Positions 1,805 to 63,074 of a DNA stretch of 64,000 bases are shown one piece after another. The notes under the pieces are model-generated. The model saw nothing but the letters and a program-made list of their open reading frames with translations, made no database searches and had not been told where the DNA came from. The first letter of the stretch is position 1. The number at the start of each line of letters is the position of its first letter. Both the position numbers and the translations under genes were made by a program. The stretch is from a virus, in IMG/VR virus record IMGVR_UViG_3300035698_026680, positions 1 to 64,000 of that record. The stretch is one strand, 5' to 3'.

Positions 1805-4800
1805 ATGACAACATTAACAGTTTACGCCAGAGCTCATATTAGAAAATCTGATGATGCCTATAAGTTTAGAATTGTTCAGTCGATTGCCCTTGATGATCTT
1901 AATGGCTGGGCTCCAACTTCTTCGACAGCTCAAGGAGCTGGAAGGGTAGAGTTTGACCCAAGGCAATACCCAGGTGGAACCAAATTCTACTTTTGCGGAT
2001 GGATAAGGCAAACTGGTGCCGGAGAAACTGTCCATGTTGAATTATGGGACGATACCAATGGAGCAAGTCTTGGTGAAATAACAACCACTGCAACCAGTCT
2101 TGAATATAATGTAGTCGAAATTACTAGATGGACAAATGAAAGCAGAACCTTAACTCCAAGATTCTGGCGATCAAATAATGGCGGAACCGTTCAGATGTAT
2201 AACGCCTTTCTTTTGATTGTCGTCCCAACAGATAGAGATTTTCTATCTCTTTGGTCTTCACAATACTGGATGTGTTTTGGACAAGAATCAATTTCATCTA
2301 CCGATTATGACGATGAAGAATCGCAAGGATTAGGAAGATTCTACTACGACTCAAGTAAGTTTAAGGGGACAACAACAATTCGTTTTCAAGCAACATTTAG
2401 TTTTGGTGATAGCGATACAGCCTACGCACGGCTTTATAACCTAACTGATGAGTCAGAAGTAAGCGGATCTGAAGTTTCTCACACAGCAAGCAGTGGCACA
2501 TTTTCTGAACTATCAGACCCAATTACTCTTGTTACTGGCAAAGAATACATCGTTCAAATTAAATCGGACAATGAAGATTGCTATCTGAGACAATCAAATT
2601 TGATTATTGACCAGGAAGATGTTGCTGGAGATGGGTCAATCAATCAAGTAAGATCATACGAAAAGATAGTTAAAAGCGGAGCCACTTCAGGGACAACATG
2701 GATAGAGAGTGCTTATAATGCACTCTCTACTAGACCAGATCCCTATACATGGCAATTGGTTACTAGAGAGTCATTTTTGCAAGCCTTTATGAAGGTGGCA
2801 GGAGCCAGCGATGGCGGTTCTATAGCTGTTAAAGATGAAGACGAAGGGATTTATACAATTATTGGGGGAATTCTTGAAGAACAGCCATTAACGATATCTT
2901 TTCAGCGATTTACGACTAGAGTACACAGATTTCCAGTAACTTCAGTTAAATTTAATGCCCTGTCTTATATCAGAGAAAGACATGCAGGGGGAGCAAGTGA
3001 TTTGTTTTCCTTCTCTGCTTTTTACATAATCACTGACTCTTATCTTAATGGAAGCAGTGCTCGCTATGTTCAGGTAAAAGCTAATATTTTTGCCACAACG
3101 CCAAGACCAATCACAGCTAAGGCAAGAATTTTAAAACACGATGTCGTCCTAACCACTTACTATTTTGATGCTTCTGATGCTGGACCAAATGATCCAGATA
3201 CCGCCTGGGCTGATGATGCTAATGCTTTTAACGGAGAAACAGAAAATTATGCTTCTTGTTCAACTCGGAGAGTCGGAGATGATAATGGATTAAATGCTAC
3301 TGGTACAAATGCCCCTGCCAGTCACGAGAAGTCGGCGATTCAATTAGTGAAAATGCGGTTCTATATGCAGACTCCAGAAGGAACATTTGATTATCTTGAT
3401 TGGAAAGTTGAATCTGGGGCAGAGCATTTAATCACTACTTTTGGAACTTTTATAGATTCTTACTATACATCAAGCACAGATGCCCTTTGGACTCCTTATT
3501 ACCTTATAGAAGATCCAGCTGATGGTTGGACATGGGCAAAAATACAAGCATTAAAAATCACTCTTTGGAATGACAACTGGAATGATGCAGAAGATCGAGT
3601 ATTCAAAGTAGAGATACTTGTTTATCACAATACGCCAACCCCACAGACGATTCAAGCTAAGGGAAGAGTTGCTAGCTATTCTTTTCCAGCGACAGCCCAA
3701 TCAAGTGCAATTAAGACATTGGCAGGCGATCTTCAGTTTGCTACCGCAACCCTGACAGCAGTTGATAGTATTCCCGCTAATACTTCAATCACTTATTATC
3801 TTTCTGCCGATGGTGGGAATAATTGGGAAGAAGTTACAGATGAAGTAGAGCATTCTTTTGTAGATAAGGGCACTGACCTAAGATGGAAGGCAATTCTCAC
3901 AACAACCGACTCTAAAGTTACCCCATATATTGAGACAGTTTCCGTTGACTGGACAACCGAATCGGCAGCAGCGGCAGAACAAACTATCACAGCAAAAGGG
4001 CGAATTCAGAAGCAATTTACACAGACGATCACCGCCAAGGGTCGAATTCAAATAGTCACAACTCAAACAATAAGTGCGAAAAGCCGAATCCAAAAAGACA
4101 GAACAGAAACAATCACGACTAAAGGACGGATTCAAATTGGCTTAACTCAGACAATAACTGCCAAGGCCAATATAAAAGTTACTTCAACACAAACGATTGA
4201 AGCAAAAGCCTCATTGATGAGGGAATTCAGTCAAACGATTAGTGCTAAAGCAAGAATTGGCATTTCTTCATCCCAAACAGTTACCGCAAAAGCCAGAATT
4301 AAAAAGCAGTTTAATCAAACGATAACTACTAAAGGTCGAATTCAAATATCTGGTTTACAAACTATAACTGCCAAGGCTTTAATTAAAAAGGAAACAAGTC
4401 AAACGATAACTGCCAAAGGGGTAATTACTAAGTCTTTTTCACAAACAATCGAAGCTAAAGGAAGAATCCAAATAACCTTTACCCAAACAATCACTGCAAA
4501 GGGTAGAATTACTATTGCTTCAAGTCAAACCATCACGGCAAAGGGGAGAATCACAGCTTTGCAAACACAAACAATAACGGCAAAGGTTAGTATTAAAAAA
4601 CTATCTACTCAAACAATTTCGGCTAAAGGAAGCATAAAAAGAGAGTTTGAACAAACAATTAGTGCCAAAGCCAGAATTGGACTTTTAACAACTAAGACAA
4701 TTACAGCAAAGAGTCGAATCACAAAAGAATTCACACAGACGATAACTGCCAAAGGGAACATAAAAGCAACGCAAGATCAAACAATCGAAGCCAAGGCCGC

Positions 4801-6436
4801 CATTAAACTCACAACCACACAAACCATAAGTGCAAAAACGGCGATCCAAAGGACACTTACACAAACCCTAACAGCAAAAGGTCGAATAACTATTAGTGGA
4901 AGTCAGACCCTAACTGCCAAGGGGCGGATTCAAAAACAGTTTAGCCAAAGCATACAAGCAAAAGGACGAATAACGATTTCTAGTACTCAAGCGATTAGTG
5001 CAAAGGCTTCTCTTGAAAAACCAACCTATCAGTATATTTCTGCCAAAGGACGGATCGAAGTACAAAGTCAGCAAACAATTACGGCCAAGGGAAGAATAAC
5101 TATTTCTAGTGAACGAACCATCACTTCTAAGGGTGATATTAAAAAGCAAACTACCCAAACAATTGAAGCAAAAGGAAGAATTCAACTAGCGGGAATTGGG
5201 GTTACGATTGATGCTAAAGCAAGAATTGAAAAAGAAGAATCAAGAACAATTTCTGCAAAGGGAGCAATTTCACGAACGTTCGAACAAACGATTTCCGCTA
5301 AAGGCAAGATTCAGAAGATCTTTACTCAAACACTATCAGCTAAAGGAAGAATTAGAGCGACTACGAGTCAAACTATTCAAGCCCTAGCTTCAATAAAGCG
5401 ATTAGCGGTCACTAGAACCATTCAAGCTAAAGGAAGGATACAAATTGCCACAAGTCAGTCTATTCAGGCAATAGGTCGTATCCAACAAGCCAGAACACAG
5501 ACTATAGGCGCTCTTGGGCGCATCAAAAAGCAGTTTAGCCAAACTATTGAAGCCAAAGGAAGAATCGGAGTTTTTGGCGGAAAAACAATTGATTCTAAGG
5601 CAAATATTAGGACAAGTATTAGTCAAACAATAAATGCAAAGGGAAGAATAACTGATGTAGGAACTCAAACAATAGAAGCCAAAGGAAGAATAACAATACT
5701 TGGTTCGCAAACAATTCAAGCAAAGGCTTCAATACAAAAAACATCTAGCCGAACGATTGAAGCTGTTGGGCGAATCGAAACGATTAGTACACAAACCCTG
5801 AGTGCTAAAGGAAGAATTCAAAGACAATCTAGCCAAACAATAAGCGCTAAGGGTTACATTGAAATTGTTTCTGAAAAAACAATCAGCGCAAAAGGACGAA
5901 TTGAGAGAAGTCAAGAACAAACGGTTAATGCAAAGGGAAGAATTGGTATTGTTTCTCAACAAACGATAGATGCAAAAGCAAATATCACAACAACAATAAC
6001 TCAAACAATTAGTGCTTTGGCGAGAATTTGTCGCGGTCAAACAATCGAAGCAAAAGCAAACATAAAAGCGGTAGCGACTCAAAGCATTTCCGCTAAGGGA
6101 AATATTCTTCTAACACAAGAGAAAACTATACAAACAAAAGCAAGTATATTAAAATTATTTGCAAAGACTATTCAGGCCAAGGGTTACATAATAACCTGGG
6201 AAGTTATCGACATCATAGATCAGGTAAGAGATCAAAAGATTGTTGATGAAGTAACCTATGTCAAAGAAATTACTAGAGAAATAAGTTATACTAAGGTTGA
6301 GACAGTCAACATCGTTGACGAAAGGTCACAGGTTAAGGATCTTCCTAGAACAAGGCCAAGAGTTATTGAAATCACTGACCTAAGCAGAACCCAACAAATT
6401 AAATGGATTACTGCTAAGGCCAGAATAAGGAGTTAA
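1805..6436 (+). CDS. Giant repeat fibre-like structural protein
   Basis: A 1543-residue protein starting one base after the stop of its neighbour. Residues 1-725 are several beta-rich, possibly carbohydrate-binding modules: an early jelly-roll-like stretch, a module near 450-610, and one around 640-720 with SITYYLSADGGNNW. Stray repeat copies sit between them near residues 420-445 and 612. Residues 726-1467 are 53 tandem units of about 14 residues. The last 75 residues are charged and end with another copy (ITAKARIRS). The form suggests a long thin beta-structured shaft. The location, before the connectors, leaves head fibre or tail fibre open. Confidence 0.85.
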   Translation: MTTLTVYARAHIRKSDDAYKFRIVQSIALDDLNGWAPTSSTAQGAGRVEFDPRQYPGGTKFYFCGWIRQTGAGETVHVELWDDTNGASLGEITTTATSLEYNVVEITRWTNESRTLTPRFWRSNNGGTVQMYNAFLLIVVPTDRDFLSLWSSQYWMCFGQESISSTDYDDEESQGLGRFYYDSSKFKGTTTIRFQATFSFGDSDTAYARLYNLTDESEVSGSEVSHTASSGTFSELSDPITLVTGKEYIVQIKSDNEDCYLRQSNLIIDQEDVAGDGSINQVRSYEKIVKSGATSGTTWIESAYNALSTRPDPYTWQLVTRESFLQAFMKVAGASDGGSIAVKDEDEGIYTIIGGILEEQPLTISFQRFTTRVHRFPVTSVKFNALSYIRERHAGGASDLFSFSAFYIITDSYLNGSSARYVQVKANIFATTPRPITAKARILKHDVVLTTYYFDASDAGPNDPDTAWADDANAFNGETENYASCSTRRVGDDNGLNATGTNAPASHEKSAIQLVKMRFYMQTPEGTFDYLDWKVESGAEHLITTFGTFIDSYYTSSTDALWTPYYLIEDPADGWTWAKIQALKITLWNDNWNDAEDRVFKVEILVYHNTPTPQTIQAKGRVASYSFPATAQSSAIKTLAGDLQFATATLTAVDSIPANTSITYYLSADGGNNWEEVTDEVEHSFVDKGTDLRWKAILTTTDSKVTPYIETVSVDWTTESAAAAEQTITAKGRIQKQFTQTITAKGRIQIVTTQTISAKSRIQKDRTETITTKGRIQIGLTQTITAKANIKVTSTQTIEAKASLMREFSQTISAKARIGISSSQTVTAKARIKKQFNQTITTKGRIQISGLQTITAKALIKKETSQTITAKGVITKSFSQTIEAKGRIQITFTQTITAKGRITIASSQTITAKGRITALQTQTITAKVSIKKLSTQTISAKGSIKREFEQTISAKARIGLLTTKTITAKSRITKEFTQTITAKGNIKATQDQTIEAKAAIKLTTTQTISAKTAIQRTLTQTLTAKGRITISGSQTLTAKGRIQKQFSQSIQAKGRITISSTQAISAKASLEKPTYQYISAKGRIEVQSQQTITAKGRITISSERTITSKGDIKKQTTQTIEAKGRIQLAGIGVTIDAKARIEKEESRTISAKGAISRTFEQTISAKGKIQKIFTQTLSAKGRIRATTSQTIQALASIKRLAVTRTIQAKGRIQIATSQSIQAIGRIQQARTQTIGALGRIKKQFSQTIEAKGRIGVFGGKTIDSKANIRTSISQTINAKGRITDVGTQTIEAKGRITILGSQTIQAKASIQKTSSRTIEAVGRIETISTQTLSAKGRIQRQSSQTISAKGYIEIVSEKTISAKGRIERSQEQTVNAKGRIGIVSQQTIDAKANITTTITQTISALARICRGQTIEAKANIKAVATQSISAKGNILLTQEKTIQTKASILKLFAKTIQAKGYIITWEVIDIIDQVRDQKIVDEVTYVKEITREISYTKVETVNIVDERSQVKDLPRTRPRVIEITDLSRTQQIKWITAKARIRS
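3980..6205 (+). repeat. 53-copy tandem array of 42-bp coding repeats
   Basis: The encoded unit is Q-T-I-x-A-K-G-R-I followed by five variable residues, 14 residues in all. I count 53 units, which matches 2226 bp exactly. Two units have 15 residues and one has 12. Third codon positions differ widely between units while the protein consensus holds, so the array is old and maintained by selection on the protein, not a recent expansion. Confidence 0.95.
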
Positions 6437-15081: not shown

Positions 15082-18000
15082 ATGTCAGGATTAGACGCTA
15101 ATACAAAATTGTTGCTTCATGGCGACGGAGCAGATACATCCACTAACTTTCCAGATGTTTCTCCTTCGGGTCATACTGTAACAGCCAATAATGGAGCAGA
15201 AGTAGATACCGCAGAGAAAAAATGGGGTACTGGATCTCTTAAATTAGATGGTGTAGATGATTACTTAATTTCTGCTGATAATGCTGACTGGGATTTATGT
15301 GGTAGTAATTCAGATGACTGGACCATAGACTTCTGGGTAAAACACACCGATCATGTTGGCAATGAGGCCTATCTTTCACAAACAGAAACTATTAATTCTG
15401 ATGAATGGCGCATCATACATCAGCATGGCACTGGTTTTATTTTTACTTTAAAGTCAGGTGGTGGTAATGTAATTATTTTAAGTGGTGGCGGGGAAATTAC
15501 TGATACTGATTGGCATCATATCGCTTTTATTAAGGTTGGGGATGAGTACGCATTCTATAAAGATGGTGTCCAAGTCAATTATGTGCAAGATAATAGTATT
15601 GATACCTTTGCTGCTTCATTGGGAATAGGTGTTCTCGAACCTGGGGGGAATAATTACGATCCCTTAGACGGATGGATGGATGAAATTAGGATTCAAAAAT
15701 CTAATTATTTTGGTGCTAGTCCAAATGCGGGAATTAGCAATACGATCACGATTCCAACAAAAGCATACGAATATAAAAGTGCGAGTTTTATTGATTACGG
15801 ACCAGAATATAATTTCAATGCTGAAGAAACCTTAACTATTGCAACTGTCTGGTTAGACAGTACTCACTTTGTTGTTGCTTATTACAGTAATGTTGCCGTT
15901 ACGGGTATTTACGCCAAAGTCGGAGTAGTTTCAAACGGAAATCAAATATCCTATGGATCTGAATATCTTATTGATAGTAGTGGCTTTGGTGGAAGTGGAA
16001 TTAGATCATTCGCCATAGATAGAATAGATGCTAATAATTTTGTCATTGTCTGGGTTGACGGATCTGGATTCAAATATGGTTTGGCTGCAATAGGAGTTGT
16101 CTCAAATGGTGATGAAATTGCCTTCGGAACCGCAGTTAAATTTAATAATGCGGCCACAGGGACAGATATTGATGTTGCTGTTCTAGATACTACACACTTC
16201 GTAGTGGCTTTCAGAGATGATGGGGGAAGCGACTACGGAATCGCCATGATCGGTGTTATTTCAAGCGGAGATGTAATTACCTTCGGAAGTGAATATAACT
16301 TCAATGAAACTAGCACTTATTGGATTAAGGTTGGAAAAATAGATGCTACTCACTTTGTCGTCATTTATGACGATGATGGTGGAGATGGTTATGGAGAGTC
16401 TAAAATTGGAACTGTATCTAGCGGCGATCAAATAGCCTATGGAAGCGAATTTACCTGGACTAGCACAGATAACCCCCAGCATCTTGGTATGGCAATGTTG
16501 GATTCAACACACTTCGTCATTGCCTATAGAAAAACAGTTGATACCTGGGATGGTAGAGTCAAAATAGGAACTATCAGTGGGGCTAATATTAGCTATGAAA
16601 GCGCCACTGTTTTTCTTTCTGGTTCAAGTCCCACAGAAACTACTGTTTGCGCATTAGATGCTACCCACTTTGTTATTGGTTATTCTGACCTTGGAGACTC
16701 TGGTAAGGGATTTTGTGTCTTTGGAATCGTTTCAGACGGAAATACAATAGCAGCTGGAGATGCATATGAATATAACGCAGTAGACACAAACTACAACGCA
16801 ATTACCAAACTAGACGCTACCCATTTTGTAATTGCCTTTATGGATGATGGCGGTAGTGATTACGGAATAGCCAGAATAGGCGATATTGAAAGGAATTTAA
16901 CTGCCAAAGGAAGTATCCAGCGTTTAGGAGTTCAAAAAACGATAACCGCCAAAGGAAGAGTTCAGCATACCAGGACAAATTCAATTACTGCAAAAGGGCA
17001 AATTGGAGCTGTTTCAACATCAACCATAAATGCTAAAGCAGATATTCTCGCTACTACGTCTAAGTCTATACAGGCAAAATCAGCAATACAAAAATCTTTC
17101 TCTAGGGAAATTAGTTCTAAGAGTCGAATAGAAAAACAATTTAGTCAGTCAATTCAGGCTAAGGCAAACTTATCCGCAGTCTTAACTCAAACAATTACTT
17201 CAAAAGCAAGCATATTTAAAGGTGGCACTCGAACAATATCGGCAAAAGCAGCTATTCAAAAAGAATTTACCAAAACAATCACTGCAACAGCATGGATTCA
17301 TAACCCGCTAGTTCCACCAACACCATTTATAGAAGAAATAAATAAAACAGTAAGACAATTATCATTTAAAGTTGAAATTCAATGGGACGGAATTTCTTGG
17401 ACAGATGAAAGCACCTATTTCGTTAGTGCCAGGGGAAATGAAAAGTTATCAAAAACTTCTGGAGAAGGAATCGCCGCTACCTTAGATGTTGAGCTAGATA
17501 ACACCACAGAAAGATTTACTCCTGATAATACATCATCACCACTTTATGGCTACTTGAAACCAAGAGTCCCAATTAGAATCTATGTTACTGCTGGTGGATA
17601 CGATTATAGAATCTTTACTGGCTACATAAAAAATCTTCATCCCGATACAAGAAGTAGAATTTGTAGTCTAGAATGTTTTGATAATCAAGTCCTGGTTTAC
17701 AACAAAAGAGCCAATGGAATAGTCTATGAAGATTATAGAAGCGATCAATTAATGGAAGCCCTGTCTGATCTAGCTGGCCTAACGGCAGATCAATATATTT
17801 TCAATGTTGGTACTCTTGTGGTTAATTTTGGTTACTTTGAAGATAGAAATGTTTGGCCGGTTATGGGAGAAATAGCAGTTGCAGAAAGAGGAAGAATCTT
17901 CTTTGATAGATATGGAATCTTAACATTTTGGAATAGAGATAAATTACATAATCAATCAGCACGAGCTATTTTACCTACAATTTCTTTATCTGAATGGGTC

Positions 18001-18762
18001 GTAGATTTAGATTATTCTGTCTCTGAGCATGAAATTAAAAACACTATTATTGTTCAAGCTAAACCTAGAGCAAGTGCTGGAGTACAGGTCGTTTGGTCAA
18101 GCGGAAATGCCGAATATTTAGATCCATACCAAGATACTCTAGTTTGGATTCCGGCAGGAAAGACTCAAATTGCCTTCCTTGAATTAGAAGACCCATGTAC
18201 TGCTTTCATCACTCCCGTTGCTAATACGGACTATACAGCTAATAGCGCCCAGGATGGCTCAGGAGATGATTTAACAAGCGATATCACTATTCACGAGTTC
18301 ATTAACTACGGGAATGCAATTTTCATTACTGTGCTTAATACAGGAGCTCAAGATGCTTATCTAACAAAATTCCAAGTTAGGGGCAATCCTGCTCAAGTGG
18401 TAAAATGGATTAGAGTTACTGCCACAGACGATACAAGCATAGCTTTTTATGGTAAACAGGATTTCAGTATAGAGAATCACTTTATTGATAGCGAAGGGGC
18501 AGCTACAGCAATCGCCAATGAAGAATTGTATCGAAGAAAAGAAGCAATTAATCTTTTTAAAATCAATATTGTGGGTATTCCGCATCTACTTTGCGGTGAT
18601 GTAATTAATTTAGAATATCGATCAGGCGAATTTAAAGACTACATGGTAGGCCAACTTGATTGGACATTCGATAGCGGCGGATTTAATCAAAAATTAATAT
18701 TAGTTAATCCATATATTTTCCCAAGCATTCAAACAGTTGATGCTAGGGCAAATATCATTTAA
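15082..18762 (+). CDS. Tail hub / receptor-binding fusion protein
   Basis: A 1226-residue modular protein. Residues about 1-230 are a LamG-like jelly roll (VDGVDDYLISADN-type strands, WHHIAFIKVGDEYAFYKDGVQV). Residues about 235-600 are repeated blades of about 50 residues built on LDATHFVIAY and VSSGDQIAYGSE, most likely a beta propeller. Residues 604-744 are ten copies of the 14-residue T-I-x-A-K repeat. Residues about 750-1226 look like a baseplate-hub domain of siphoviral tail proteins (IRIYVTAGGYDYRIFTGYI, later ERGRIFFDRYGILTFW). The hub location and order make this the tail tip, probably with host binding at the N-terminus. Confidence 0.75.
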   Translation: MSGLDANTKLLLHGDGADTSTNFPDVSPSGHTVTANNGAEVDTAEKKWGTGSLKLDGVDDYLISADNADWDLCGSNSDDWTIDFWVKHTDHVGNEAYLSQTETINSDEWRIIHQHGTGFIFTLKSGGGNVIILSGGGEITDTDWHHIAFIKVGDEYAFYKDGVQVNYVQDNSIDTFAASLGIGVLEPGGNNYDPLDGWMDEIRIQKSNYFGASPNAGISNTITIPTKAYEYKSASFIDYGPEYNFNAEETLTIATVWLDSTHFVVAYYSNVAVTGIYAKVGVVSNGNQISYGSEYLIDSSGFGGSGIRSFAIDRIDANNFVIVWVDGSGFKYGLAAIGVVSNGDEIAFGTAVKFNNAATGTDIDVAVLDTTHFVVAFRDDGGSDYGIAMIGVISSGDVITFGSEYNFNETSTYWIKVGKIDATHFVVIYDDDGGDGYGESKIGTVSSGDQIAYGSEFTWTSTDNPQHLGMAMLDSTHFVIAYRKTVDTWDGRVKIGTISGANISYESATVFLSGSSPTETTVCALDATHFVIGYSDLGDSGKGFCVFGIVSDGNTIAAGDAYEYNAVDTNYNAITKLDATHFVIAFMDDGGSDYGIARIGDIERNLTAKGSIQRLGVQKTITAKGRVQHTRTNSITAKGQIGAVSTSTINAKADILATTSKSIQAKSAIQKSFSREISSKSRIEKQFSQSIQAKANLSAVLTQTITSKASIFKGGTRTISAKAAIQKEFTKTITATAWIHNPLVPPTPFIEEINKTVRQLSFKVEIQWDGISWTDESTYFVSARGNEKLSKTSGEGIAATLDVELDNTTERFTPDNTSSPLYGYLKPRVPIRIYVTAGGYDYRIFTGYIKNLHPDTRSRICSLECFDNQVLVYNKRANGIVYEDYRSDQLMEALSDLAGLTADQYIFNVGTLVVNFGYFEDRNVWPVMGEIAVAERGRIFFDRYGILTFWNRDKLHNQSARAILPTISLSEWVVDLDYSVSEHEIKNTIIVQAKPRASAGVQVVWSSGNAEYLDPYQDTLVWIPAGKTQIAFLELEDPCTAFITPVANTDYTANSAQDGSGDDLTSDITIHEFINYGNAIFITVLNTGAQDAYLTKFQVRGNPAQVVKWIRVTATDDTSIAFYGKQDFSIENHFIDSEGAATAIANEELYRRKEAINLFKINIVGIPHLLCGDVINLEYRSGEFKDYMVGQLDWTFDSGGFNQKLILVNPYIFPSIQTVDARANII
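16891..17313 (+). repeat. Ten-copy array of the 14-residue repeat inside the hub protein
   Basis: Ten units of x-x-I-(T/Q/S/N)-A-K-x-x-I plus five variable residues, the first with one extra residue. The consensus is the same as in the 53-copy array at 3980-6205. It links the propeller-like domain to the hub domain. Confidence 0.9.
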
Positions 18763-23662: not shown

Positions 23663-23698
23663 TTCTTTTCATTAGTGCACTGGTGAGAAGAAAAAAGA

Positions 23699-23733
23699 AT
23701 AGGGTAGTTTTTAAGCTACCCTATTTTTATTTC
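23699..23733. terminator. Bidirectional rho-independent terminator
   Basis: ATAGGGTAG (23699-23707) pairs with CTACCCTAT (23716-23724). T-rich tracts follow on both strands (TTTTTATTT on plus, TTCTTTTTT on minus). It separates the plus-strand lysis region from the converging minus-strand tRNA operon. Confidence 0.9.
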
Positions 23734-23751: not shown

Positions 23752-23827
23752 TGGAGCTAGTGGTTGGTCTCGAACCAACTGCCTTCTCGTTACAAAGGAG
23801 ATGCTCTGCCAGATGAGCTACACCAGC
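23752..23827 (-). tRNA. tRNA-Thr(TGT), CCA encoded
   Basis: The cloverleaf can be drawn: acceptor GCTGGTG/CACTAGC, T loop TTCGAGA, anticodon loop TTTGTAA. The discriminator is T and the CCA end is encoded (23752-23754). It is the promoter-distal gene of the minus-strand tRNA operon and overlaps the end of a small ORF. Confidence 0.9.
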
Positions 23828-24084
23828 TTATAAGTTCTTCCTGGGAACAAGACTGTAGCAATGTTCCCTGCATTCGTATCATAAACCACTATAAACTTCT
23901 TTCCTAGTAGAGAAACTTGATGGACTGTTCTACTAGGTGTTTGTCTTCCTAAAAAGATACTAATTCCGTTTTTAACCTGTTGGCAAAGTTTTCGATATTC
24001 TTTTCCGCTAATCCTAATATCATATCTCTCTAATAATCTTCTCCTAAAATGGATATGATTATTTCTCTTTTTTGATCTACCCAT
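23818..24084 (-). CDS. Small basic protein between tRNA genes
   Basis: An 88-residue protein: a basic N-terminus (MGRSKKRNNHIHFRRR), then RYDIRISGKEYRKLC and a C-terminal strand pair (KKFIVVYDTNAGNIATVLFPG). I recognise a pattern shared with small phage proteins that end in a VVYD...I-x-T-V-L-P hairpin, but no function. The frame opens further upstream inside tRNA-Phe. ATG 24084 is chosen because it follows the tRNA discriminator by one base. No Shine-Dalgarno is present. The stop lies within tRNA-Thr. Confidence 0.6.
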   Translation of the reverse strand: MGRSKKRNNHIHFRRRLLERYDIRISGKEYRKLCQQVKNGISIFLGRQTPSRTVHQVSLLGKKFIVVYDTNAGNIATVLFPGRTYKLV

Positions 24085-24085
24085 G

Positions 24086-24160
24086 TGGGACTTTGTGGAA
24101 TCGAACCACAGCTTTCTGTTTTTCAGACAGACGCGCAATAACCAACTACGCTAAAGTCCC
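24086..24160 (-). tRNA. tRNA-Phe(GAA)
   Basis: Acceptor GGGACTT/AAGTCCC with A73, T loop TTCGATT, anticodon stem TCTGT/ACAGA with loop CTGAAAA. No CCA is encoded. The next base after A73 is C, followed at once by the ATG of a small ORF. Confidence 0.93.
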
Positions 24161-24165
24161 CTTTG

Positions 24166-24239
24166 AGCCCTGAGTCAGAATCGAACTGACGCATAGTGGG
24201 TTTGCAAGCCACCGCGTTAAACCACTTCGCCACCAGGGC
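24166..24239 (-). tRNA. tRNA-Cys(GCA)
   Basis: Acceptor GCCCTGG/TCAGGGC with T73, which is the cysteine identity discriminator. Anticodon loop TTGCAAA; the closing pair 31-39 is a C-C mismatch. T loop TTCGATT. Confidence 0.88.
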
Positions 24240-24243
24240 TTAG

Positions 24244-24314
24244 TGACCCTACGGGGTTACGATCCCCGCCTTCTGGTTAGAAAGACCAGCGTCCTGCCAT
24301 TAGACTATAGGGCC
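24244..24314 (-). tRNA. tRNA-Glu(TTC)
   Basis: Acceptor GGCCCTA/TAGGGTC, anticodon stem CTGGT/ACCAG with loop CTTTCTA. The T loop is ATCGTAA instead of TTCRANN. Confidence 0.88.
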
Positions 24315-24318
24315 TGAG

Positions 24319-24390
24319 TGACGCTACAGGGAATCGAACCCTGCCTGCTAAGTTGAGAACCTAGTGTCCTAACCGATAGACGATAGCGCC
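24319..24390 (-). tRNA. tRNA-Glu(CTC)
   Basis: Acceptor GGCGCTA/TAGCGTC with A73, anticodon stem CTAGG/CTTAG with loop TTCTCAA, T loop TTCGATT. A second glutamate tRNA next to the TTC one. Confidence 0.9.
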
Positions 24391-24394
24391 TTAG

Positions 24395-24485
24395 CGGAAG
24401 CAATAGGACTCGAACCTATGTTGCTGTTTGACGAGCAAACCAGTTTAGCAAACTGGCACGGCTAGCCTTCACCGAAACTACTTCC
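24395..24485 (-). tRNA. tRNA-Ser(GCT)
   Basis: Acceptor GGAAGTA/TGCTTCC with G73, anticodon loop TTGCTAA, and a long variable arm as expected for serine. Confidence 0.92.
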
Positions 24486-24488
24486 ATG

Positions 24489-24549
24489 TAGCAGCGATAG
24501 ATTTTGTTCCAAACCGATCAAAATTCAGAAGTGTTCTCTATCGTTGCTG
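24489..24549 (-). ncRNA. Structured spacer S1 in tRNA operon
   Basis: GCAGCGATAGA (24491-24501) pairs with TCTATCGTTGC (24537-24547) with one G-U pair, and two more pairs extend it outward. The loop is about 35 nt. It is not a tRNA. It may be a processing spacer or a small RNA. Confidence 0.4.
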
Positions 24550-24622
24550 TGCTCGATGACGGATTCGAACCGCCGACGCTCGGTATGTAAAACCGACGCT
24601 CTGGCCACTGAGCTAATCGAGC
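24550..24622 (-). tRNA. tRNA-Val(TAC)
   Basis: Acceptor GCTCGAT/ATCGAGC with A73, anticodon stem TCGGT/ACCGA with loop TTTACAT, T loop TTCGAAT. Confidence 0.93.
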
Positions 24623-24626
24623 ATTG

Positions 24627-24698
24627 TAGGCCAAGTTGGGATCGAACCAACGACTCCCACTTCATCAGAGTGGTACTCTGCCACTGAGTTACTGGCCT
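24627..24698 (-). tRNA. tRNA-Ile(GAT)
   Basis: Acceptor AGGCCAG/TTGGCCT with A73, anticodon stem CCACT/AGTGG with loop CTGATGA, T loop TTCGATC. Confidence 0.93.
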
Positions 24699-24703
24699 AT
24701 GTG

Positions 24704-24778
24704 TGCACCTAGTAGGACTCGAACCTACAGCCTACTGTTTCGAAGACAGTCGGCTCTGTCCAATTGAGCTATAAGTGC
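24704..24778 (-). tRNA. tRNA-Arg(TCG)
   Basis: Acceptor GCACTTA/TAGGTGC with A73, anticodon stem ACTGT/ACAGT with loop CTTCGAA, T loop TTCGAGT. Confidence 0.93.
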
Positions 24779-24782
24779 TTTG

Positions 24783-24856
24783 TGAGTCTGGATGGATTCG
24801 AACCATCGACACCCTAGTTAAGAGCTAGGTGCTCTGGCCAACTGAGCTACAGACCC
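24783..24856 (-). tRNA. tRNA-Lys(CTT)
   Basis: Acceptor GGGTCTG/CAGACTC with A73, anticodon stem CCTAG/CTAGG with loop CTCTTAA, T loop TTCGAAT. The stop codon of the small ORF at 24972-24847 lies inside its 5' part. Confidence 0.93.
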
Positions 24857-24972
24857 TTGTTGAAATGATATCTAAGCCACCATTTATGAATCATTCTTGA
24901 CCAAAAGCCGTTTTTAGGAATCCTTTTATTTTTCCTTGTATTCCTGCTTTTGTTTTTCTTTTTATGATTCAT
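24847..24972 (-). CDS. Possible 41-residue basic peptide between lysine tRNAs
   Basis: The ORF fills the 117-nt spacer between the two lysine tRNAs. The peptide is very basic and aromatic (MNHKKKNKSRNTRKNK, later FWSRMIHKWWLRYHF). Its ATG follows the tRNA-Lys(TTT) discriminator by one base, as in the ORF at 24084. There is no Shine-Dalgarno. It could be chance, but the matching start position makes it worth keeping. Confidence 0.4.
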   Translation of the reverse strand: MNHKKKNKSRNTRKNKRIPKNGFWSRMIHKWWLRYHFNKGL

Positions 24973-24973
24973 G

Positions 24974-25047
24974 TGAGTCCAGATGGAATCGAACCATCGA
25001 CCTGCAGGTTAAAAGCCTGTTGCTCTGCCGGACTGAGCTATGGACCC
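24974..25047 (-). tRNA. tRNA-Lys(TTT)
   Basis: Acceptor GGGTCCA/TGGACTC with A73, anticodon stem CAGG/CCTG with loop CTTTTAA, T loop TTCGATT. Closely related to tRNA-Lys(CTT) nearby, so probably a duplication. Confidence 0.93.
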
Positions 25048-25049
25048 AA

Positions 25050-25292
25050 TTATCCGCTACTTAGGAAAATTCCTGGCATACAAGGACATTCAAAAGTATA
25101 AGGATCGCCCTTGACTTGTTTCAGCTTTTTTCCACAATTAGCGCATTTATTATTTTTTACTAGACTAAGAAGGTACTTGTTTGCCTTTTGGCAATCTTTA
25201 CAAGTATCTTGATTATGCCCCTTTTTCTTGCCAAGATTTTTCGTCAAATGTTCTAAACAAGGCTTAATTTTTTTCGGTGCATGCTTAATCAT
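25050..25292 (-). CDS. Small zinc-ribbon-like protein between tRNA genes
   Basis: An 80-residue protein with CKDCQ, CANCGKK and ECPC, enough cysteines for one or two zinc sites, on a lysine-rich background. The frame extends upstream through tRNA-Ser. ATG 25292 is chosen because its A is also the final A of the encoded CCA of tRNA-Ser(TGA). No Shine-Dalgarno is present. Function unknown. Confidence 0.6.
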   Translation of the reverse strand: MIKHAPKKIKPCLEHLTKNLGKKKGHNQDTCKDCQKANKYLLSLVKNNKCANCGKKLKQVKGDPYTFECPCMPGIFLSSG

Positions 25293-25294
25293 GG

Positions 25295-25381
25295 CGGAAG
25301 GTGTAGGACTCGAACCTACACGACCTTGCGGCCTGCTTGTTTTCAAGACAAGGGCGATATCCAATTACGCTTTAACCTTCC
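25295..25381 (-). tRNA. tRNA-Ser(TGA), CCA encoded
   Basis: Acceptor GGAAGGT/ACCTTCC with G73, anticodon stem CTTGT/ACAAG with loop CTTGAAA, long variable arm. CCA follows in the genome (25294-25292) and its last base is the first base of the next ORF's ATG. Confidence 0.92.
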
Positions 25382-25385
25382 TTTG

Positions 25386-25456
25386 TCGCTAGGTCGGGAG
25401 TCGAACCCGAACTTTCAGATTATGAGCCTGATGTGCGGCCTTTACACTACCCAGCA
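25386..25456 (-). tRNA. tRNA with CAT anticodon (Met or Ile2)
   Basis: Acceptor TGCTGGG/CCTAGCG begins with a weak U-G pair; A73. Anticodon stem TCAGG/TCTGA with loop CTCATAA. It lacks the three G-C pairs of an initiator anticodon stem, so it is elongator Met or a lysidine-type Ile tRNA. Sequence alone does not decide. Confidence 0.85.
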
Positions 25457-25460
25457 TTTG

Positions 25461-25534
25461 TGCCTGAAAAGAGATTCGAACTCTTACAGTACCGGTTTTA
25501 AGCCGATTGTGTCTACCAATTGCACCATTCAGGC
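25461..25534 (-). tRNA. tRNA-Leu(TAA) with short variable loop
   Basis: Acceptor GCCTGAA/TTCAGGC with A73, a leucine-like D arm (GGTGCAATTGGTAGACAC), anticodon loop CTTAAAA, T loop TTCGAAT. The variable loop is only five bases (ACTGT), whereas leucine tRNAs normally have a long arm. It is 74 nt long. Confidence 0.85.
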
Positions 25535-25540
25535 TTTAGG

Positions 25541-25625
25541 CCAAGGAGTCGTAAGACCTTTCGCCAGAGCTAATTTTTATCTAGAAACAATTAGCAACTT
25601 CATCATCCATTTCAAGATGCCTTGG
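25541..25625 (-). ncRNA. Structured spacer S2 in tRNA operon
   Basis: CCAAGG and CCTTGG (25541-25546 and 25620-25625) close the element. Inside, AATTAGC and GCTAATT form a hairpin. Length and closing stem are tRNA-like, but no anticodon or T arm can be drawn. Possibly a decayed tRNA or a small structured RNA. Confidence 0.4.
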
Positions 25626-25698
25626 TAGGCGGGGCAGGAGTTGAACCTGCTTCCTTCTCTTTATAAGAGAGATGCTCCTTCCGTCAAGCTGACCGCCT
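25626..25698 (-). tRNA. tRNA-Ile(TAT)
   Basis: Acceptor AGGCGGT/CCCGCCT with a mismatch at 7-66 and A73, anticodon stem TCTCT/AGAGA with loop CTTATAA, T loop TTCAACT. It reads ATA codons, common in this AT-rich genome. Confidence 0.88.
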
Positions 25699-25702
25699 AT
25701 AG

Positions 25703-25775
25703 TGCCTTCAACAGGAATCGAACCTGTAGTCTACTCCTTAGAAGGGAGTTGCTTTATCCGTTAAGCTACAAAGGC
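25703..25775 (-). tRNA. tRNA-Arg(TCT)
   Basis: Acceptor GCCTTTG/TGAAGGC with A73, anticodon stem ACTCC/GGAGT with loop CTTCTAA, T loop TTCGATT. Confidence 0.93.
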
Positions 25776-25779
25776 TTAG

Positions 25780-25851
25780 TGCGCCGACCAGGAATCGAAC
25801 CTGGGTCTAGGGCTTAGGAAGCCCCCATTCTATCCGCTAAACTACCAGCGC
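25780..25851 (-). tRNA. tRNA-Arg(CCT)
   Basis: Acceptor GCGCTGG/TCGGCGC with A73, anticodon stem GGGGC/GCCCT with loop TTCCTAA, T loop TTCGATT. Confidence 0.92.
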
Positions 25852-25854
25852 ATT

Positions 25855-25944
25855 CCTTGGCTTATTAATAAGTGACAGTGGCCGTCTGTCATGCAGTGGG
25901 AACTGCTCGTATTTTTTGACCCAGTGTTTCGCTGGGCTCCTTGG
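25855..25944 (-). ncRNA. Structured spacer S3: four consecutive hairpins
   Basis: Between two tRNAs lie four perfect small stems: CTTATTAATAAG (25861-25872), TGACAG/CTGTCA (25873-25878 with 25886-25891), GCAGT/ACTGC (25893-25897 with 25902-25906) and CCCAG/CTGGG (25920-25924 with 25932-25936). The block is flanked by direct copies of CCTTGGCT. No cloverleaf fits. Function unknown. Confidence 0.45.
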
Positions 25945-25947
25945 CTG

Positions 25948-26021
25948 TGCCTAAGATTGGATTCGAACCAACACTGTCGGGGTTTTGAATCCCGTATCTC
26001 TACCGATTGGATTACTTAGGC
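25948..26021 (-). tRNA. tRNA-Leu(CAA) with short variable loop
   Basis: Acceptor GCCTAAG/CTTAGGC with A73, anticodon stem CGGGA/CCCCG (one A-C mismatch) with loop TTCAAAA, T loop TTCGAAT. The variable loop is five bases (ACAGT). The anticodon implies leucine (TTG codons), but the D arm is less leucine-like than in the other two. Confidence 0.75.
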
Positions 26022-26025
26022 TTAA

Positions 26026-26122
26026 AAGAACTATGGGGGCGACAATCCCCATCGTACCGCTTTCGTTATCTTGCGACCTACTCACGACCCGCAGTAGAGC
26101 CTTTCTGCATTTATAGTTCTTA
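26026..26122 (-). ncRNA. Structured RNA S4 with a tRNA-like acceptor and T arm
   Basis: AAGAACTAT (26026-26034) pairs with ATAGTTCTT (26114-26122), nine pairs. Next to the 3' strand on the minus strand is GGGG-ATTGTCG-CCCC, a stem with a 7-base loop placed like a T arm. Inside, CTACT/AGTAG and CGC/GCG form further stems. No anticodon arm fits. It recalls the stable non-tRNA RNAs in the T4 tRNA cluster. Confidence 0.5.
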
Positions 26123-26124
26123 GT

Positions 26125-26198
26125 AGCCGATACAGGACTCGAACCTGTAAAACCTTGTTTCTAAAACAAGTATGTATACCAAATTCCATCAATCGGCC
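26125..26198 (-). tRNA. tRNA-Leu(TAG) with short variable loop
   Basis: Acceptor GGCCGAT/ATCGGCT with A73, leucine-like D arm (ATGGAATTTGGTATACAT), anticodon stem CTTGT/ACAAG with loop TTTAGAA, T loop TTCGAGT. The variable loop is five bases (GTTTT) in place of the usual long arm. Confidence 0.87.
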
Positions 26199-26208
26199 AT
26201 AAAGTGAG

Positions 26209-26237
26209 ATATTATCAAAAAGAGAGATATTTTAAAG
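26209..26237 (-). promoter_or_regulatory. Internal promoter of the tRNA operon
   Basis: On the minus strand CTTTAA, a 17-bp spacer and TAATAT. The spacer AATATCTCTCTTTTTGA is identical to that of the promoter at 26784-26812. It lies between tRNA-Tyr and tRNA-Leu(TAG). Confidence 0.55.
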
Positions 26238-26245
26238 TGCAAATG

Positions 26246-26328
26246 TGCCGCCTATAGGAATCGAACCTATCTGGCCTTACGACAACAGCTTTACAGGCTG
26301 CCCCACCTCCTTAATGGACTACGACGGC
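26246..26328 (-). tRNA. tRNA-Tyr(GTA)
   Basis: Acceptor GCCGTCG/AGGCGGC (mismatch at 7-66) with A73, anticodon stem GCAGC/GCTGT with loop CTGTAAA, long variable arm as in bacterial tyrosine tRNAs, T loop TTCGATT. It is the promoter-proximal tRNA of the operon. Confidence 0.9.
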
Positions 26329-26614: not shown

Positions 26615-26783
26615 ATTGTCAATTGAAAGAAACAATCCCAGGGTAAGCATAATAAAAGTTACGATGATATCCCCGCGGATTCACCCAAACCGATTTTATT
26701 TTTGCCATTCGTATCGGACAAAACAAAACCGATGTCATTTCAAAGAGCAATTCCTTCTTACTTCCTTTTATCATATTACTTAT

Positions 26784-26812
26784 ATTATATCAAAAAGAGA
26801 GATATTTATCAC
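26784..26812 (-). promoter_or_regulatory. Main promoter of the minus-strand tRNA operon
   Basis: On the minus strand GTGATA, 17 bp and TATAAT. The -35 resembles the GTGATT of the phage promoters at 30422 and 31501. It faces the zinc-ribbon ORF and the tRNA genes. Confidence 0.65.
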
Positions 26813-52646: not shown

Positions 52647-52939
52647 AACTAACAAAAGAAGAAAGAAACCTTTTACTGTTTCTCGAATACACTGCAGTAG
52701 ATCAATGGGGCTGGGTCAAAGACATAAGACATTTAAACGCAGGAGATCTTGAGATTATGAAACAGTGGAATAAGTCTGGTTTTGTTTTATCAAAGCGAGC
52801 CCATAAAAGTAAAGGCAAGCTAACCCAACTCACCTATGTTGTTAAACTTTCTCCTGAAGCATGGGGGATGGCTCACAAGCTAAGGAGAGAAAAAGCAGAA
52901 AGACATATTCCAGAAAAATTTAATAAGGAGAAAATATGA
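52643..52939 (+). CDS. Winged-helix-like hypothetical protein
   Basis: A 98-residue basic protein coupled by ATGA to the O-like gene (LLLFLEYTAVDQWGWVKDI, later LTQLTYVVKLSPEAWGM). A small winged helix is plausible. It ends in an ATGA overlap with rtcB. Confidence 0.6.
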   Translation: MKLTKEERNLLLFLEYTAVDQWGWVKDIRHLNAGDLEIMKQWNKSGFVLSKRAHKSKGKLTQLTYVVKLSPEAWGMAHKLRREKAERHIPEKFNKEKI

Positions 52940-54117
52940 AAGTAATAAACAAAAAAAACTATAAAGTACCAGTTTTTAATTGGTGTCCAGAAATTGAAGA
53001 TGGTGCTATGGCTCAAATAGACAACTTGGCACAATTGCCATTTGTATTTAAAAGAATTTCAATAATGAGTGACTGCCATCAAGGGTACGGGATGCCTATT
53101 GGTGGAGTTATGGCCGCCGAAGGCGTAATAGTTCCAAATGCTGTCGGTGTCGATATTGGTTGCGGAATGTGTGCGGTCAAAAGCAATTTGCGAGCAATTG
53201 ATACCGATTTGCTTAAAAAGATAATGGGGGAGATTAGGAAAGTAATTCCTTTGGGATTTAATAAGCATGATAAAGAACAAGATATCAAATTAATGCCCGA
53301 CAATGAAGAATTAAAGCTAATAGTTTATCAAGAGTATAACAACGCCCTAAAATCTCTCGGCTCTCTCGGTGGTGGTAACCACTTTATCGAAATCCAAAAA
53401 GGCGACGATGGTCATATTTGGATTATGATTCATTCTGGAAGTAGAAACTTGGGGTTCAAGGTAGCCCAACACTACAACAAACTGGCGGTTGAATTAAACG
53501 AAAAATGGAAAAGCGAAGTTCCTAAGAGTTGGGGGTTAGCTTTTTTACCAGTGGATTCTCAGGAAGGTCAAGACTACATAAAAGAAATGCAATACTGTGT
53601 TGACTTTGCTTTGGCCAATCGCAAGTTGATGATGGAAAGAGTGAAGGGAATTGTTGCTAAGGTTATTCAGGAAAGTTGGATTGATGGAATAATATCTATT
53701 GGATTCGAGCCAATGATAAATATAGCCCACAACTATGCTTCTTTAGAGAATCACTTTGGGAAGAATGTATGGGTACATAGAAAAGGGGCCACAAAAGCGA
53801 CCAAGGGGTTAGTAGGCATAATTCCTGGCTCACAAGGGACTAAAAGCTATATTGTCGAAGGCTTGGGCAATAAAGAGTCGTTTATGTCTTGTTCTCATGG
53901 AGCGGGTAGAAAAATGAGTCGAAGCCAAGCAAGGAAAGAACTAAGCCTTGTGGAAGAACAATACAAAATGGAAGGTATTGTTCACGGGATCAGAAGCGCT
54001 CAAGACTTAGATGAAGCCCCAGGATCTTATAAAGACATTGGCAAAGTGATGGAAAATCAAAAAGACCTAGTTAAAATTTTAGTTGAGTTAACACCACTAG
54101 CTGTTATTAAAAGTTAA
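52936..54117 (+). CDS. rtcB: RtcB-type RNA ligase
   Basis: A 393-residue ligase that joins 2',3'-cyclic phosphate to 5'-OH RNA ends. Motifs: DCHQGYGMPIGGV near residue 46, VGVDIGCGM near 70 (metal Asp and Cys), GGGNHFIE, HSGSRN, GSQGT and the guanylylated histidine H321 in CSHGAGR. All key residues are present. In a phage with two tRNA clusters it may repair tRNAs cut by host anticodon nucleases, or join the interrupted tRNA at 60145. Confidence 0.93.
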   Translation: MKVINKKNYKVPVFNWCPEIEDGAMAQIDNLAQLPFVFKRISIMSDCHQGYGMPIGGVMAAEGVIVPNAVGVDIGCGMCAVKSNLRAIDTDLLKKIMGEIRKVIPLGFNKHDKEQDIKLMPDNEELKLIVYQEYNNALKSLGSLGGGNHFIEIQKGDDGHIWIMIHSGSRNLGFKVAQHYNKLAVELNEKWKSEVPKSWGLAFLPVDSQEGQDYIKEMQYCVDFALANRKLMMERVKGIVAKVIQESWIDGIISIGFEPMINIAHNYASLENHFGKNVWVHRKGATKATKGLVGIIPGSQGTKSYIVEGLGNKESFMSCSHGAGRKMSRSQARKELSLVEEQYKMEGIVHGIRSAQDLDEAPGSYKDIGKVMENQKDLVKILVELTPLAVIKS

Positions 54118-59624: not shown

Positions 59625-59692
59625 AGGTCGGGCGCTGGGCGCAAGAAGCACTCCAAACGCTTCTCCGCCGGGTTCAATCCCTGGACGGCCTG
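59625..59692 (+). tRNA. tRNA-Trp(CCA)
   Basis: Acceptor AGGTCGG/ACGGCCT (last pair mismatched) with G73, the tryptophan discriminator. Anticodon stem GAAGC/GCTTC around CTCCAAA. The D arm is unusually short and the gene is 68 nt. Confidence 0.75.
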
Positions 59693-59713
59693 CAAAAACT
59701 TAACGGGCAACTA

Positions 59714-60144: not shown

Positions 60145-60321
60145 GCGGCGATGGTGTAGTGGTAGCACATCCTTTATCGAGCAACACCCTGGGACAAGCT
60201 CCCCAGTTCGGTACCGCTCACAATATAAATTCACTAGGTTTAAAGGTCTAGAGTTTTCTCGAGAACCTTTAAGCGGATGAAGTTACAATGGAAGACAAGG
60301 GTTCGAATCCCTTTCGCCGCT
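60145..60321 (+). tRNA. Interrupted tRNA-like gene, 177 nt
   Basis: Acceptor GCGGCGA (60145-60151) and TCGCCGC (60314-60320) pair perfectly, with T73. A D arm (GTGTAGTGGTAGCAC) and a normal T arm (AAGGG/CCCTT around TTCGAAT) are present. Where the anticodon arm should be, CATCC (60168-60172) pairs with GGATG (60275-60279). About 100 nt with two long hairpins lie between them: GAGC/GCTC with CTGGG/CCCAG, and a 16-pair arm from 60238 to 60274. The anticodon cannot be assigned; T73 fits Gly or Cys. Either a split or intron-bearing tRNA or a tRNA-like RNA. Confidence 0.6.
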
Positions 60322-60327
60322 CAAAAT

Positions 60328-60587: not shown

Positions 60588-60920
60588 ATGGGCAAAGCAT
60601 GGAAAGATTTAGAAAGAACTGCCGCTAAAATTCTTGGTGGCAAAAGAATAATCAGAGAACATTTTGGCGTTAAAAAGCCGGATGTAAAACTAAAAGACTT
60701 CCCTAACTTCAAGATTGATACTAAACGCTATAAAAAGTTTAGAGTTTTTTCTTTATACGAAGAAGTCAAAAAGAGATATTGCAAAAAGCCTGTAGATCAG
60801 GTTATTCTTGTTTTAAGACAACACAATAAACAAACCAAATTAGCAGTCATAGACTTAAATCTATTGGCAAAGCTTATTAATTTTGTAAGAGAAAAGGAAG
60901 GTCAAAATGGTTTTCGTTAA
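60588..60920 (+). CDS. Holliday-junction-resolvase-like nuclease
   Basis: A 110-residue basic protein. GVKKPDVKLKDFPNFKIDTK has the paired Asp and D-x-K of small archaeal- and phage-type resolvases. Similar in plan to the protein at 58333 but with different details. AAAAGGAG precedes ATG. Confidence 0.65.
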   Translation: MGKAWKDLERTAAKILGGKRIIREHFGVKKPDVKLKDFPNFKIDTKRYKKFRVFSLYEEVKKRYCKKPVDQVILVLRQHNKQTKLAVIDLNLLAKLINFVREKEGQNGFR

Positions 60921-60951
60921 AAATTTACTTTCTAGATTTCGAAAGGATAAA

Positions 60952-61407
60952 ATGAGAGATAAAAGATATTTCTTAAATGCGGAAATAAAGTTTGATTCCG
61001 CTCATCGTTTGTCTAATTATAAGGGAAAATGTAGCAATCTTCATGGTCATACTTACCGGGTCATAATCACTGTTAGTTCAAACAAATTGAATAATTGGGG
61101 AGCCGTAATGGATTTTGGTAAATTAAAGCATCTTCTAAAAGAGAAGGTTGATGAAAAATACGACCATAAAACGATTCTCTATATCGGAGATAAAGAAAAC
61201 CAAGTTATTGGCAATGTCTTAACAGAAGATGCTATTGCTTGGATGAACAGCAATCCAACTGCCGAAAATATGGCAAGAGAGATTTTTCAAGACTTAGTTC
61301 CAAGCATAAAGGCAGAAAGAAAAAATATTAAATTAGAAGTAGTGGCAGTTTACGAAACAGAGACAAATGTTGCCCGCTATTCAGAAGACTATGAAAAAAA
61401 CAAATAA
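60952..61407 (+). CDS. queD: 6-carboxytetrahydropterin synthase
   Basis: A 151-residue QueD, the second step from GTP to preQ0. Zinc ligands are in FDSAHRL and NLHGHTY, and the catalytic Cys in KGKCSN sits just before HGH. MDFGKLK is the next conserved block. ATG 60952 after GAAAGGAT gives the usual family start. An upstream ATG at 60907 (after GGAAGG) would add 15 residues. Confidence 0.88.
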   Translation: MRDKRYFLNAEIKFDSAHRLSNYKGKCSNLHGHTYRVIITVSSNKLNNWGAVMDFGKLKHLLKEKVDEKYDHKTILYIGDKENQVIGNVLTEDAIAWMNSNPTAENMAREIFQDLVPSIKAERKNIKLEVVAVYETETNVARYSEDYEKNK

Positions 61408-62098
61408 AAAACTTCTAGTAAGTAAAGATGGTGTTTTCTTCTCTTTACAAGGAGAAGGCCCGACAATGGGAAAGCCCGCTATTTTTTTGAGACTTCAATT
61501 ATGCAATCTTCATTGTGCATGGTGCGATACTAAACACACCTGGAATTCGCAAGATGGCGAGTCTTGGAGTATCACTAAAACAGTAATAAAGCTAGGCAGA
61601 TACATGGATAGCGAGCGCTATCGTTATCAGCGTATTGTTATTACAGGCGGCGAGCCACTTCTTCAATCAGATGCGATAGATGAGCTTTTAGGCCAATTTT
61701 GCTATCCACATAGAGTAGAGATTGAAACAAACGGAACAATTAGTCCAAGTCAGGCGATGATTAGTGATGGAGTTAGATTTAATGTTTCTCCAAAATTAGA
61801 AAATTCTGGCAACCTAAAGGAATCAAGATACGCACCTGCAATTCTTCAAGTATTTAATGAAGTGAAAAAGACGAGTTTTAAATTTGTTGTTACTGGACCA
61901 AAAGACATTGCTGAAATTGAAAGAATAGTTAGAGAATGCGATTTGGATTCTGAAAAGATTATTTTAATGCCCGAAGGCAGAAGCCAAGAAGCCATTTCTA
62001 AGCATGGAAAAGCAGTCGCTGAAATATGCAAAGAAAAAGGCTGGCAGTTAATTCCGAGATTACAAGTTATGCTTTGGGGAGACGAAAGGAAAAAATGA
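61391..62098 (+). CDS. queE: 7-carboxy-7-deazaguanine synthase, radical SAM
   Basis: A 235-residue QueE. The N-terminus has FFSLQGEGPTMGKPAIF, then the CNLHCAWC cluster motif (C-x3-C-x2-C) that binds 4Fe-4S and SAM. TGGEPLLQ follows. It makes CDG from the QueD product. ATG 61391 overlaps queD by 17 bp; the upstream ATG is too far from the motif. Confidence 0.9.
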   Translation: MKKTNKKLLVSKDGVFFSLQGEGPTMGKPAIFLRLQLCNLHCAWCDTKHTWNSQDGESWSITKTVIKLGRYMDSERYRYQRIVITGGEPLLQSDAIDELLGQFCYPHRVEIETNGTISPSQAMISDGVRFNVSPKLENSGNLKESRYAPAILQVFNEVKKTSFKFVVTGPKDIAEIERIVRECDLDSEKIILMPEGRSQEAISKHGKAVAEICKEKGWQLIPRLQVMLWGDERKK

Positions 62099-62925: not shown

Positions 62926-63074
62926 AAGAACTATTTTTATCAACTTTAACAGGAAGTGTTTGCGGATTTATTTTTAGCAAACTAGGACTTCCTATTCCTG
63001 CCCCTGGCGTATTAGCAGGGATCATGGGAATTATAGGAATCTTTCTAGGTTATAAACTTGCAGGATTAATATGA
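62922..63074 (+). CDS. XapX-like small membrane protein
   Basis: A 50-residue protein with two hydrophobic segments and LGLPIPAPGVLAGIMGIIGI, which closely follows the XapX domain pattern (L-P-x-P-A-P-x-V-L-A-G). XapX proteins occur in nucleoside-metabolism operons and have unknown function. ATGA overlaps both neighbours. Confidence 0.75.
   Translation: MKELFLSTLTGSVCGFIFSKLGLPIPAPGVLAGIMGIIGIFLGYKLAGLI

Follow-up and report, generated by a model that had tools for sequence, protein, structure and literature searches.

In animal mitochondria, transfer RNA (tRNA) genes act as punctuation and separate one open reading frame (ORF) from the next. Here we describe a comparable arrangement in the virus record IMGVR_UViG_3300035698_026680, of which positions 1-64,000 were analyzed (the window; the record has 102,499 bases). 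Within a minus-strand cluster of tRNA genes, tRNA island 1, three small ORFs (ORF1-3) each begin at a tRNA 3′ end, and in each of these three gaps the ORF extends as far as the following tRNA and its 5′ end. As in mitochondria, there is almost no spacer between tRNA and ORF, there is no Shine-Dalgarno (SD) sequence, and excision would leave messenger RNA (mRNA) leaders of 0-3 nucleotides (nt). Unlike in mitochondria, the arrangement is found in phages and bacteria, stop codons are encoded (two of them within the next tRNA), ORFs occur at some tRNAs only, and excision is what we propose. From sequence comparisons, we put at roughly two in three the probability that tRNA 3′ maturation frees leaderless or nearly leaderless mRNAs, which would be mitochondrial tRNA punctuation in a form used by phages and bacteria.

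In mycobacteria, a message needs no more than ATG or GTG at its 5′ end for leaderless initiation (PMC4633059). The 5′ ends of such actinobacterial mRNAs (PMC4633059, PMC3848588) were mapped as transcription starts, whereas here tRNA 3′ processing would make the end and perhaps keep one C. PMC3848588 also describes mRNAs that are made leaderless by MazF cleavage in E. coli. There, too, an endonuclease makes the leaderless message after transcription, but the cut is a toxin cleavage under stress and not a step of tRNA maturation. The same paper describes tRNA 3′ cleavage in P. acnes that can fall between the two Cs of CCA. This resembles our proposal in being an endonucleolytic cut adjoining C74 with a downstream product, and differs from it in that the passage on this cleavage connects the cut with neither a downstream mRNA nor translation. 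Our search of the open-access literature found no report of leaderless mRNA from tRNA processing in bacteria or phages, which is not proof of absence.

Three ORFs start at tRNA 3′ ends

The original prediction placed the ATGs of ORF1 and ORF2 one base past the discriminator of the upstream tRNA and let the ATG of ORF3 share the A of an encoded CCA; these coordinates and spacings are correct (Table 1). Read along the minus strand, tRNA-Phe ends in AAGTCCC, followed by the discriminator A (24086), C (24085) and ATG (24084-24082). tRNA-Lys(TTT) likewise ends in GGACTC, followed by A, C and ATG (24972), and tRNA-Ser(TGA) ends in CCTTCC, followed by G, CC and the A (25292) of ATG. All three starts fall 0-3 nt from a tRNA 3′ end, the spacing expected of tRNA punctuation. 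The predicted lack of an SD was likewise confirmed, as none of AGGA, GGAG or GAGG lies upstream of ORF1-3 and ORF2 has GGA at most; an SD match of at least 4 nt is present at 50 of the 108 large ORFs of the record. A C directly after the discriminator (position +1) is common to the tRNAs of the window generally and occurs in 39 of 42 phage tRNAs without CCA (ends by Rfam), so this base is not special to ORF1-3.

Table 1. Positions of the three ORFs, the adjoining tRNAs and the elements flanking tRNA island 1 in the window.
Feature	Position	Strand	Remarks
ORF1, 88 amino acids (aa)	23818..24084	-	ATG one base past tRNA-Phe; stop TAG formed by bases 8-10 of tRNA-Thr
ORF2, 41 aa, basic peptide	24847..24972	-	ATG one base past tRNA-Lys(TTT); stop TAG formed by bases 8-10 of tRNA-Lys(CTT); coding status weak
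ORF3, 80 aa, Cys-rich	25050..25292	-	A of ATG is the last A of the CCA encoded by tRNA-Ser(TGA); TAA 2 nt before tRNA-Lys(TTT)
tRNA island 1	23752..26328	-	20 tRNAs
tRNA-Thr(TGT)	23752..23827	-	source of ORF1 stop codon
tRNA-Phe(GAA), C at +1	24085..24160	-	discriminator 24086, Rfam end 24086
tRNA-Lys(CTT)	24782..24856	-	source of ORF2 stop codon
tRNA-Lys(TTT), C at +1	24973..25047	-	discriminator 24974, Rfam end 24974
tRNA-Ser(TGA), CCA encoded	25292..25381	-	
Intrinsic-terminator-like hairpin	23698..23725	-	past the final tRNA of island 1
Promoter-like site	26784..26812	-	upstream of island 1; GTGATA-17-TATAAT, TG preceding second hexamer

Each gap was shuffled 20,000 times with dinucleotides kept. 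A single open frame arose by chance with P=0.0009 for ORF1, 0.10 for ORF2 and 0.0016 for ORF3. An ATG within 0-3 nt combined with a frame open to the gap end was seen in 0 of 20,000 shuffles for ORF1, and at frequencies of 0.011 for ORF2 and 2e-4 for ORF3. Because their open frames are so improbable in shuffled sequence, ORF1 and ORF3 are probably genes, while ORF2, taken alone, could be chance. Codon usage agrees weakly with this: in ORF1 and ORF3 it is better than in about 98% of non-coding frames but lies at the 7th-9th percentile among the genes of this phage. An alternative is that ORF1-3 are untranslated and that the arrangement reflects chance or decayed genes, which would agree with this codon usage, with the absence of homologs in the databases searched and with an ORF2 that lies within chance. 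We consider this improbable, given how rarely the open frames of ORF1 and ORF3 arise by chance and given that these two ORFs start at a slot that holds real genes in other phages. By eye, ORF3 is zinc-ribbon-like. Structures predicted from the single sequences have pLDDT (predicted local distance difference test) values of 53 for ORF1 and 60 for ORF3, and a PDB search with ORF1 returned nothing significant.

The junction is conserved in other phages and in bacteria

The original prediction would have been contradicted by relatives with freely varying spacing and broken frames. This comparison was made on other phages only, and there the junction is conserved. Among 13 Streptomyces phages, chosen by protein similarity and not by junction, a start of ATG or GTG one base past the discriminator is kept in 25 of 26 junctions. 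The gene following tRNA-Leu(caa) has this start in 12 of the 13; in the exception, phage Elmer, 14 nt separate the gene from the annotated end of the tRNA, and AAGGAGG stands immediately upstream of the gene. After tRNA-Leu(gag), ATG or GTG occupies the position in 13 of 13 phages, although in two of these, Jay2Jay and Mildred21, the annotated start is an ATG 6 bases downstream and the GTG is our own reading. This second slot is occupied by three unrelated proteins.

A wider scan of IMG/VR for a T-arm followed by the discriminator A and CATG returned at least 120 stretches; tRNAs followed by CA[ACG]G instead served as control. Among the matches listed, the median open run after CATG is 46 codons and 42 of 118 runs reach at least 60 codons, against a median of 11 codons and 13 of 100 runs in the control (Fisher p=9e-5). 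ORFs one base past the discriminator among these matches include a uracil-DNA glycosylase, an HD protein and a HAD hydrolase (Pfam), and at least three contigs carry several tRNA-ORF junctions each. Not every family keeps the junction: in contigs from IMG/VR a 112-aa family follows tRNA-Ile, but its homologs in Flavobacterium phages have no annotated tRNA nearby. A 101-aa family that follows tRNA-Met has no match among deposited phages.

We further examined spacing in a set of 1572 tRNAs sampled independently of the downstream junction, with d as the number of bases between the discriminator and the start codon. Frames of at least 60 codons follow 8 of 27 ATGs at d=1, 6 of 68 at d=2 and 5 of 35 at d=3, compared with 20 of 241 at d=4-11 (p=0.003 against d=1) and 102 of 469 at d=12-25. 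The second rise, from 12 nt, lies where an SD fits. SD-like 4-mers accompany about a third of the starts beyond 12 nt; among the 42 long frames at d=1 they occur in 7 (17%). The last figure bears on the idea that an SD within the tRNA 3′ half drives initiation on uncut RNA, since short d=1 frames contain such a 4-mer in 3 of 43 cases. We regard this as very improbable: the internal 4-mer is missing in 83% of long d=1 frames, in ORF1-3 and in most Streptomyces phage and bacterial ppiA junctions (below), and starts at 4-11 nt are rare even though they could use the same internal SD.

The start codons at d=1 are also restricted. Long frames follow ATG or GTG (RTG) in 11 of 42 cases and TTG in 0 of 36 (p=0.0006), a difference that is not significant at d=4-11. 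This matches mycobacterial leaderless mRNAs, which accept ATG and GTG only (PMC4633059), and as in leaderless messages an SD is mostly lacking at the junction; ORF1-3 all start with ATG. Such messages could also arise if a promoter inside the tRNA gene started a transcript at the ATG itself, and actinobacteria commonly have leaderless mRNAs that owe their 5′ ends to transcription start (PMC4633059, PMC3848588). Of 47 long frames at d=1, however, 4 (9%) have TANNNT at the -10 place, no more than the background of 10%, and this origin is to us the most remote of those considered here.

A corresponding junction occurs in bacteria. Orthologs of ppiA from an actinobacterial group were collected by protein similarity, plus three seed loci taken from the junction pattern; the genomes are related and the loci are not independent events. 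Out of 33 loci 30 were readable, and 28 of these have a tRNA-Ala upstream. ppiA starts one base past the discriminator in 18 of the 28 (17 ATG and one GTG), or in 15 of 25 without the three seeds; of the others, four have an ATG at d=4 and six start at 50 nt or more. In the d=1 cases the conserved core lies anywhere from 12 to 33 nt away from the junction, so it is the tRNA, not the protein, that fixes the position of the start. In another bacterial ORF one base past a tRNA, the CofD domain begins at residue 4. Bacterial genes at four such loci are CofD/YvcK-like and, by eye, TadA-, RecJ- and response-regulator-like.

These findings also bear on whether packing alone explains the junctions, with compact genomes setting tRNAs and ORFs side by side and translation proceeding from the uncut transcript. 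Compact phages have widespread gene overlap, and 16 of 53 ORF ends lie near the next tRNA (from 10 nt inside to 10 nt before it). The scarcity of starts at 4-11 nt, the restriction of d=1 starts to RTG, the ATG that stays in place while ppiA N-termini vary and the SD in Elmer are not what packing alone predicts. On uncut RNA, 30S binding should also be impeded by the folded tRNA immediately before the start. We therefore consider packing an unlikely explanation.

Proposed route from tRNA maturation to leaderless messages

In the reading that we prefer, in which tRNA 3′ maturation frees the messages, the island would be transcribed as a single RNA. A maturation nuclease would cut at or next to base 74, on the 3′ side of either the discriminator or the encoded C; mycobacterial RNase E is described as cutting 5′ of C (PMC10641625). 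A cut before the C at +1 would yield C-AUG and a cut after it AUG. The freed mRNAs would carry 0-2 nt before AUG and would be translated without an SD; all these steps, from the single transcript to translation, are the most conjectural for this phage. The tRNA genes would thus act as punctuation that creates mRNA 5′ ends, as in animal mitochondria. At ORF3, a cut that keeps the CCA would take away the A of the ATG, so tRNA and mRNA would compete for the shared base unless the cut fell before or within the CCA.

The original prediction held that protein expression is tied to tRNA maturation. Its nearly leaderless mRNA is supported, at the level of sequence patterns, by the conserved d=1 junction, the 4-11 nt dip and the RTG-only long frames. 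Its competition at ORF3 fares less well: CCATG starts are followed by long frames in 8 of 61 cases versus 11 of 196 (p=0.05), so that such starts in other phages may be real slightly more often, a marginal difference. It also overlooked that the stop codons of ORF1 and ORF2 lie in the next tRNA; ORF3 ends on a separate stop codon, yet the A of its ATG belongs to the CCA as well.

Several points weigh against the proposal. In tRNA punctuation both ends of an ORF are expected to be clear of tRNAs, or its stop to be completed by polyadenylation, and neither applies to ORF1 and ORF2. Their stops lie inside the next tRNA, and if RNase P trimmed that tRNA first, the message would be left without a stop codon; this overlap goes against the simplest excision picture. 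These messages would have to be translated before the RNase P cut, or their non-stop ends rescued. An identical 10-nt overlap with the next tRNA occurs in three further viral d=1 ORFs. A leader of a single nt also differs from no leader at all, and in PMC4633059 the RTG tested stood exactly at the 5′ end. Within the unbiased set, 8 frames make up the d=1 peak, in spacing classes picked after viewing a smaller sample. ORF1-3 have no homologs in Pfam or PHROGs, ORF1 and ORF3 none in IMG/VR, and ORF1 none among the phages and plasmids searched. The phage relatives found are two fragments (TerL 80% identical) with a single tRNA each, neither carrying ORF1. With no related island found and no homologs of ORF1-3, the evidence of conservation comes solely from other phages and from bacteria. 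For this phage the proposal would also require a host capable of leaderless initiation; many of the phage's genes have an SD.

Other features of the record

Of the 108 large ORFs (non-overlapping, at least 100 aa) 107 lie on the plus strand, as do the seven tRNAs of island 2. Promoter-like matches around island 1 are close in number to chance expectation. The first ORF upstream of the island (26619-26774, minus strand) starts about 10 nt past an extended -10 TATAAT and may itself be leaderless through transcription start. The spacers of island 1 without ORFs (24486-24548, 25535-25622, 25852-25946 and 26022-26122, minus strand) fold into structured RNAs, one of 101 nt with a folding energy of -26.3 kcal/mol, and match no Rfam family above threshold. 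The tRNA cluster of phage T4 includes stable non-tRNA RNAs, and these spacers are possibly of that type.

The following observations in the window concern the plus strand. Positions 60147-60322 have tRNA-like ends (GCGGCGA...TTCGAATCCCTTTCGCCGC) flanking a structured insert of about 110 nt, with a short, weak match to transfer-messenger RNA (tmRNA) at the T-arm (E=0.008). A tRNA-Trp(CCA) whose D arm is reduced may lie at 59628-59694, where neither ARAGORN nor Rfam makes a call; Trp is the only amino acid without an entry in the tRNA list. By eye, 52936-54117 encodes an RtcB-like RNA ligase, in this tRNA-rich phage, and 60907-63739 holds QueD-, QueE- and QueC-like genes (7-deazaguanine pathway). 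A 1543-aa protein (1805-6436) contains many TQTITAKGRI-type repeats, a motif also present in the protein at 15082-18762. Past the terminase genes, positions 64001-102499 of the record hold a long run of genes that are glycosyltransferase- or methyltransferase-like by eye.

Implications

Whether the arrangement amounts to a general device is, in our estimate, evenly poised. In that case tRNA genes would make mRNA 5′ ends across phages and some bacteria, and the slot one base past the discriminator would be reused by unrelated proteins. Maturation of the tRNA would switch on leaderless translation and tie protein to tRNA output, and where the stop lies in the next tRNA, each transcript would give either a complete protein message or that tRNA. 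If true, the finding would extend the idea of mitochondrial tRNA punctuation to phages and bacteria and would account for phages that string small genes between tRNAs. It would also define a class of genes in which RNA processing determines the start and which gene callers can misplace, as in Jay2Jay and Mildred21, where the annotation lies 6 nt downstream of the GTG at the junction.
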